Below are positions 26,104 through 27,400 of a DNA stretch of 38,834 bases, one piece after another. Positions within the stretch are counted from its first letter, which is position 1, and every line of letters begins with the position of its first letter. The DNA lies in contig WGCA01000001.1 in the NCBI GenBank assembly GCA_015494065.1, forward strand, positions 1-38,834. Direction: 5' to 3'. The DNA is from Thermodesulfobacteriaceae bacterium (GTDB taxonomy: Bacteria > Desulfobacterota > Thermodesulfobacteria > Thermodesulfobacteriales > Thermodesulfatatoraceae). A program made the translations under genes and the position numbers. The notes below the pieces were generated by a model. The model had not been told where the DNA came from and ran no database searches. It saw only the letters and a list, made by a program, of their open reading frames with translations.

Positions 26104-26137
26104 TTTTCTAATAAAAAAACTCAAAGGAGGGTTTTAT

Positions 26138-27343
26138 ATGGCATTGTTGGTTAGTATCTTCATTTTTCTCTTATTTTCTTCGTTTTCAATGGCTGAAAAG
26201 CTCACCTTCCCCAATCAGTTGATTGACGATTTCGACACTTTTGTGGCCACTTACGACGCTAAACGTTGTGCCGAGTGTCATGAAGATGTTTACGAAGAGT
26301 GGAAAGAATCTTATCATTCTCGCTCCATGATTTCTTCTATCAAAGGAATCGCCAACTTCTTCACCGTAGGCGTGCCTAAAGAATGGGAAAAGGAACTCAA
26401 TAAACAGGAGATCATAAAGTGTCTTGACTGCCATTTACCCCAGATCAAATTTGCCACCGAAAGACTGGCCCAGGAAATCGCCACTTATATGATTAAAGCC
26501 AAAATTGGTAAAGGAAAGGAAAAAGAAGAAGCCCGGGCCAAGCTAAAAAAATTGAATCTTTCCTGTTACGGGTGTCATAATATCAAAATCGCCGGCACGG
26601 CCCCTGGTATTACCGGACACATTGATCCCAACGTGATCTACACCTCTGGAGAAGGGGAATCTGACGCCCACGAAACCGAACACACCCCGATCCTCAAACG
26701 GGCGTTTTTCTGCGTCCAGTGTCACGGGGTCTATATCGCGCCTGACGGAGAGAGTACCTATTGTAACACGCTTTCTGGCAGTTACGTGCACAACTATATC
26801 GGCCAGGGGGGTCGTAAGACCTGTCAAGAGTGTCACATGTACGCCAAAGGGCGCGGCCACCGGATGCCCGGAGGACATGACCTAGAAATTGTGAAAGAAG
26901 GGATCGATTTTCAGGCGGAAATACGCGCCTTCCGTTACGGGGTAGGGAAATGGGTCCCCGCCGTTAACGTGGAAGCTTTCCTTACTAACAAGGCCGGGCA
27001 CCGCATCCCCGACGGGTGACTCTGGTCTGGCAAAGTGGTCCTGGAAGTGACCGCTAAAGACCCTGAGACCGGCAAAGTCCTTTACCACGATACCCGTAAG
27101 TATTTCGAAATTGGTTTGGATCTGGATGGTTTTATGCGCTATGGCGCCTGGCAGATTAAGGAAATCGTTGATCTCACCCTTCAGCCCTTAAAGACCCAGC
27201 ACGAGCGCTTTTTCTTCACCTTTGCCCAAAAAGATCTGGAAAAGGCCGAGATAGCCGTTAACGTCTACTACTATATCAGCGGCAAAAAAGGCGACCTCAT
27301 CTATCAGGTGAAAAAACTGGTCGAATTTCCAGAAATGCCCTAA
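26138..27343 (+). CDS. Multiheme c-type cytochrome, candidate selenoprotein (ExtKL-like)
   Basis: One frame encodes 401 residues if the single UGA at 27017-27019 is read through. A signal peptide (LLVSIFIFLLFSSFSMA) leads to five CXXCH haem motifs: C44, C95, C143, C192 and C229. The first, RCAECHEDVYEEW, is typical of cytochrome c554-like multihaem proteins. After the haems, TNKAGHRIPDG runs directly into UGA (position 294), then LWSGKVVLEVTAKDPETG continues as an ordinary beta-rich domain to ...EFPEMP. A candidate SECIS stem-loop follows the UGA. I recall that Geobacter ExtK and ExtL were split by such a UGA, hence the ExtKL-like label. Without Sec it would be a nonsense-mutated gene. AAAGGAGG precedes the ATG. 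The role is periplasmic electron transfer, partner unknown. Confidence 0.8.
27034..27055 (+). promoter_or_regulatory. Candidate bacterial SECIS element
   Basis: Bases 27034-27040 pair with 27049-27055 (A-T, G-C, T-G, G-C, G-C, T-A, C-G). After a C/T mismatch and a T-G pair, a GGAA apical loop lies at 27043-27046, with the first loop G 23 bases past the UGA. Bacterial SECIS elements have a guanine-led apical loop about 16-37 bases after the UGA, so the placement fits. The stem is only moderately strong. Confidence 0.5.
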
Positions 27344-27370: not shown

Positions 27371-27400
27371 AAAAAGGGAGGGGAGTTCCCCTCCCTTTTT
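27371..27400. terminator. Bidirectional intrinsic terminator
   Basis: A perfect 13-bp stem (AAAAAGGGAGGGG with its complement at 27388-27400) closes an AGTT loop and is followed by ATTTTTATTCTTTTTTTT. It lies between the convergent cytochrome and thi4 genes and its A/T flanks serve both directions. Confidence 0.9.

Follow-up and report, generated by a model that had tools for sequence, protein, structure and literature searches.

The closest described relatives of the gene reported here are ExtKL of Geobacter and the cytochrome MccSep. Fujita et al. 2007 (PMC1914089) found the Geobacter pair GSU2937 and GSU2936 and suggested selenocysteine, but they reported neither a SECIS element nor Cys homologues and retained a conserved operon as the alternative. 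Later work linked ExtKL, as a putative selenoprotein, to selenite reduction (PMC5877670) and described it as a pentahaem cytochrome of the periplasm, possibly made as a single protein through the UGA (PMC6148476); it is also listed among prokaryotic selenoproteins (PMC13188914). MccSep, a multiheme cytochrome c selenoprotein, is represented by the PDB entries 9wt8, 9wt9 (the U325A variant), 9wta, 9wtb and 9wtc.

We analysed a window of 38,834 nucleotides, the whole stretch taken from the genome of a heat-loving bacterium close to Thermodesulfatator atlanticus, and found in it one gene of this type. Its product scored 449.3 bits against the NCBIfam equivalog model NF040886 "multiheme c-type cytochrome (seleno)protein ExtKL", for which the curated cut-off is 250 bits, and it carries the five CXXCH motifs and the GHxIPDG[U/C] signature of the family. 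Five CXXCH motifs, GHxIPDGU, the in-frame UGA and a C-terminal sandwich domain are common to this protein and Geobacter sulfurreducens ExtKL (GSU2937-GSU2936, NF040886); the window protein differs in belonging to a sister clade, where U is followed by LWSGKVV and not by PTPNRLV, and in having no extHIJ genes near it. A PDB sequence search matched 9wt8/9wt9 with E about 1e-48. MccSep aligned across residues 49-380 with an identity of about a third, and its DGxPTPNRLV motif places it in the ExtKL clade. The residue that differs between its Sec and U325A chains, Sec325, aligned exactly with the UGA of the window gene. Taken with the evidence below, the window protein is almost certainly a genuine selenoprotein of the ExtKL (MccSep) family, with UGA 294 decoded as selenocysteine, and it adds one member to an already known selenoprotein family. 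The features are as follows.

26138..27343, + strand: pentahaem cytochrome gene, almost certainly encoding a selenoprotein (ExtKL family, sister clade); open frame with one TGA, NF040886 449 bits (cut-off 250), PDB MccSep E 9e-49
26124..26129, + strand: Shine-Dalgarno-like region, AAAGGAGG at about 26122-26130, for ATG 26138; from sequence
26138..26197, + strand: signal-peptide-like N-terminus MALLVSIFIFLLFSSFSMAE, suggesting periplasmic export; translation, judged by eye
26267..26281, + strand: haem-binding motif 1, CAECH; translation, invariant in family
26420..26434, + strand: haem-binding motif 2, CLDCH; translation, invariant in family
26564..26578, + strand: haem-binding motif 3, CYGCH; translation, invariant in family
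26711..26725, + strand: haem-binding motif 4, CVQCH; translation, invariant in family
26822..26836, + strand: haem-binding motif 5, CQECH; translation, invariant in family
27017..27019, + strand: UGA almost certainly read as selenocysteine, residue 294; TGA in 83 and Cys in 4 of the 89 family sequences that span it; equivalent to MccSep Sec325
27035..27054, + strand: SECIS-like hairpin, stem GTGGTC/GACCGC, loop CTGGAAGT, 15 nt past the UGA; synonymous-codon freeze, pairing in 30/30 clade members, lost in Cys homologues
27371..27400, + strand: intrinsic terminator-like hairpin and T run; from sequence

The first-pass annotation had proposed a multihaem cytochrome whose two halves lie in one frame and are separated by UGA alone, and translation of the window agreed with this: positions 26138-27343 (+) hold 402 codons with a single internal stop, the TGA at codon 294. 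The five CXXCH motifs and AGHRIPDG precede this codon and LWSGKVVLEVTAKD follows it in the same frame, so the 107 residues after the TGA form a C-terminal part collinear with the part before, as had been claimed; the only correction is a trivial one, the omission of L295 between the UGA and WSGK. The full product would have 401 residues, Sec being number 294, and a haem-free mass of about 45.4 kDa. ATG 26138 has a strong Shine-Dalgarno sequence, AAAGGAGG, and is followed by a hydrophobic leader, and inspection of the sequence upstream of ATG 26099 found no Shine-Dalgarno there. The gene appears to be monocistronic.

When 395 genomes of the phylum were searched, 46 gave a match, in most cases with one in-frame TGA, and a GTDB genome search brought in further members from Nitrospirota and Desulfobulbales. 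Among the 89 family sequences that cover the site, the codon was TGA in 83, Cys in 4 and Ile or Val in 2, so the check for U or C at residue 294 in homologues found both, and the same-column TGA persisted down to about 30% identity. A sequencing error, or a pseudogene with a nonsense mutation, might be proposed for the window gene, where one TGA is the sole disruption, but the same codon stands in the same place in dozens of species with conserved flanks, and also in a 98% identical gene copy from an independent assembly (L032). Since the TGA recurs in the same column of 83 family sequences and in that assembly, it is neither a chance occurrence nor a sequencing error; the latter explanation is already refuted by the comparative data, and its probability is vanishingly small. 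A second TGA that had been flagged in another member (L008) lies near the C-terminal end and reads as an ordinary stop.

Cys stands at the Sec site in L117, L118, the second copy of L122, and L123, and copies with Cys and with Sec coexist in the same genome in G309, G269, G027 and G281. The two paralogues with Ile or Val have the motif changed to PDS[IV]SS and keep every haem motif, which means that the haem domain can do without Sec. Some of these loci have features of their own. L122 (G027:C12:96193-98659) holds a tandem pair of Sec-free ExtKL-type genes, with Cys at the site in one and Ile in the other, and G027 also has a Sec copy elsewhere, which makes a natural Sec/Cys/Ile series. The Cys paralogue L118 (G269:C11:70616-71821) has two TAA codons within it, and the gene may be degenerating or split into pieces; L117 is an intact relative. 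An ExtKL-type frame in L031 (1006-2619) has nine CXXCH motifs if read upstream past an earlier TGA, and the extra motifs possibly belong to an adjacent cytochrome gene that shares the frame.

FastTree analysis divided the family into clade A, with 33 sequences including the window protein (support 0.96), clade B of the ExtKL type with 51 sequences (support 0.96), and a small PHGU clade of 4 sequences (support 1.0), of which one member, L063, scored 289 bits and thus falls within NF040886. The motif of the window's clade is DGULWSGKVV, versus DGUPTPNRLV in the ExtKL clade. Two genomes, G248 and G345, each hold both A and B copies, so clade A represents a line of paralogues rather than simply a diverged orthologue. 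The neighbours of the gene in the window encode a citrate-type (CitMHS) transporter, a universal stress protein (Usp), Thi4 and a quinolinate-type phosphoribosyltransferase (QRPTase). The extHIJKL cluster, with its porin and rhodanese, was not present at the window locus; this cluster is a feature of the Geobacter locus and not a criterion of the model. The context had been called unusual at first, and the absence of ext genes nearby was confirmed, but it is ordinary for the window's clade, which stands alone: comparison of the clade loci showed no conserved neighbours beyond the synteny of close relatives. In the literature consulted we found no description of this cluster-free clade. The small pentahaem cytochromes (sPHC) of cable bacteria are described as structural homologues of ExtKL, with one two-gene arrangement and not beside an outer-membrane porin gene (PMC11976967); the likeness is by description only. 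As the window's clade contains many Desulfobulbales, these proteins may be members of it.

All four components of the selenocysteine machinery, selA, selB, selC and selD, were present in the genome. Profile searches gave 638 bits for selA, 383 bits for selB and 389 bits for selD, and tRNA-Sec (selC) was found by two programs. In L096 (1112-1596, G000:C21) the tRNA-Sec gene lies directly after two tRNA-Ser genes (CGA, GGA). The selD gene (L113, G000:C12:10071-10994) has its own in-frame TGA, in the context RAAG-U-AAKIPP, followed by the strong hairpin CCACCAG-CGGAA-CTGGTGG; therefore, at least one further selenoprotein is made by this genome. selA was present in 40 of the 40 genomes with a TGA member, but also in 40 of 45 genomes of the phylum without a family match, so its presence in all carriers is consistent with the selenocysteine reading and only weakly telling. 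The frame would also be open if the UGA were read as another residue, such as Trp or Gly, by near-cognate decoding or under a changed code. Against this, TGA is the stop codon of 8 of the 32 genes in the window, the homologues that lack TGA carry Cys (4) or Ile/Val (2) and never Trp or Gly, and the full Sec machinery is present together with a SECIS element, which makes such decoding exceedingly unlikely.

The putative SECIS hairpin has the RNA form GUGGUC-CUGGAAGU-GACCGC and coincides with frozen codons for V-V-L-E/D-V-T just past the UGA (GTG GTC CTG GAW GTG ACC). Numbered as in P0001, whose start lies 13 residues before that of the window protein, codons 313-315 and 317-318 had a top-codon fraction of 0.97-1.0, versus a background of 0.54 over 111 other conserved columns, and no other stretch of the gene was as frozen, in the window's clade and the ExtKL clade alike. 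The six stem pairs formed in 180 of 180 cells in the window's clade (30/30 distinct sequences) and in 271 of 312 stem cells in the sister clade, and when the partner was slid by 1-2 nt as a control, pairing fell to 23-42%. Compensatory versions of the stem were seen, for example CUGGUA/UAUCAG and GCGGUG/CACCGC (L024, L133, L015). The four Cys members had no hairpin and encoded similar residues there with other codons. Freezing in Sec members and loss in Cys members is the pattern as expected of a SECIS element. Folded alone, the hairpin showed no unusual stability given its composition (z -1.0 to -3.0), and an Rfam search at the gathering threshold gave no match within the window; the case for the predicted element is comparative, and single-sequence folding is not decisive. 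In the third clade (PHGU motif; L063, L065, L066, L070, Nitrospirota) the hairpin past the UGA is built differently.

These data also bear on whether the UGA is a true stop in an operon of two genes, one for a truncated pentahaem cytochrome and one for a small separate protein. Gene finders annotate two genes in this way, as with ExtK and ExtL in Geobacter, and Fujita et al. left the conserved operon open, having found no SECIS. However, the second part has no signal peptide of its own and no ribosome site: its first possible start past the TGA, GTG 27035, was inspected and has none, as had been said of the C-terminal half. In addition, Cys homologues, L117 for example, each form one protein without interruption, codon freeze and a hairpin occur right after the UGA, and a stop there would split a beta sandwich, so we consider two separate genes very improbable. 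The reading of the UGA as selenocysteine, as the first-pass annotation had suggested, is supported by the machinery, the TGA and Cys homologues, the independent assemblies and the SECIS-like hairpin, and it is also matched by the Sec that the depositors named at the equivalent MccSep residue. The first three of these are the points on which that annotation had said it could be refuted, and each spoke for selenocysteine.

An AlphaFold2 model of the read-through protein, built on 52 aligned members, was confident (pLDDT 93.1, pTM 0.89). It has a helical haem domain and then a beta domain with strands from both sides of Sec, and Sec itself (model residue 274, gene residue 294) lies in the loop that joins strands 253-264 and 279-287. 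The nearest solved fold that Foldseek found in the searchable PDB was the pentahaem cytochrome c552 of Thermochromatium tepidum (5ze8; TM 0.61, 21% identity); the MccSep entries were not among the matches and seem newer than the searched library. The PHAMPTG loop of 5ze8 is at the same place as the Sec loop of the window protein, but it has Ala at the Sec site, neither Sec nor Cys.

Only four His residues outside the CXXCH motifs are invariant in the family (73, 191, 254 and 301 of P0001), versus five haems, and the other invariant ligand candidates are Cys222 and U307 in the same numbering. This count of distal His suggests that one haem may be five-coordinate or have a chalcogen ligand, and the authors of the cable-bacteria study likewise concluded a five-coordinate haem for their sPHC models (PMC11976967). 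It is possible that Sec is bonded to the haem iron. We also considered Cys222 as the redox partner of Sec, which was unsupported, since Cys222 is kept where Sec is replaced by Ile or Val.

We propose that SelA, SelB, SelD and tRNA-Sec would decode UGA 294 as selenocysteine, so that one gene gives one protein, and that the SECIS hairpin inside the coding sequence, which starts 15 nt downstream of the UGA, would direct this decoding. The product would be an exported pentahaem c-type cytochrome, with a five-haem domain and then an immunoglobulin-like beta sandwich, and Sec would sit in the conserved GHRIPDGU loop that joins two strands of the sandwich. Judged from its leader, the protein would be exported to the periplasm, where its role is most likely in electron transfer as an electron carrier. 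We moderately favour a role of Sec at a haem: it may serve the haem domain through redox activity of its own, or by acting as a ligand at or next to the haem that has no fifth invariant distal His, and the selenium probably does redox chemistry at, or coordinates, one haem. A more specific idea, which we regard as rather unlikely, is that the window's clade is a solitary sister clade of ExtKL (Thermodesulfobacteria, Desulfobulbales, Nitrospirota) that has a partner and a substrate of its own, and that one haem of its cytochromes has Sec as a distal ligand or as a catalytic residue.

Both points that were open in 2007, the SECIS element and the Cys homologues, are answered by the present data, although others may have done so earlier, and together they make the Sec assignment firm for the ExtKL family. 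Multihaem electron carriers rarely contain Sec, and natural variants with Cys or Ile/Val, which stand beside Sec copies in the same genomes, are ready controls for the contribution of selenium. Within this family, the clade of the window protein appears as a separate branch without the ext cluster.
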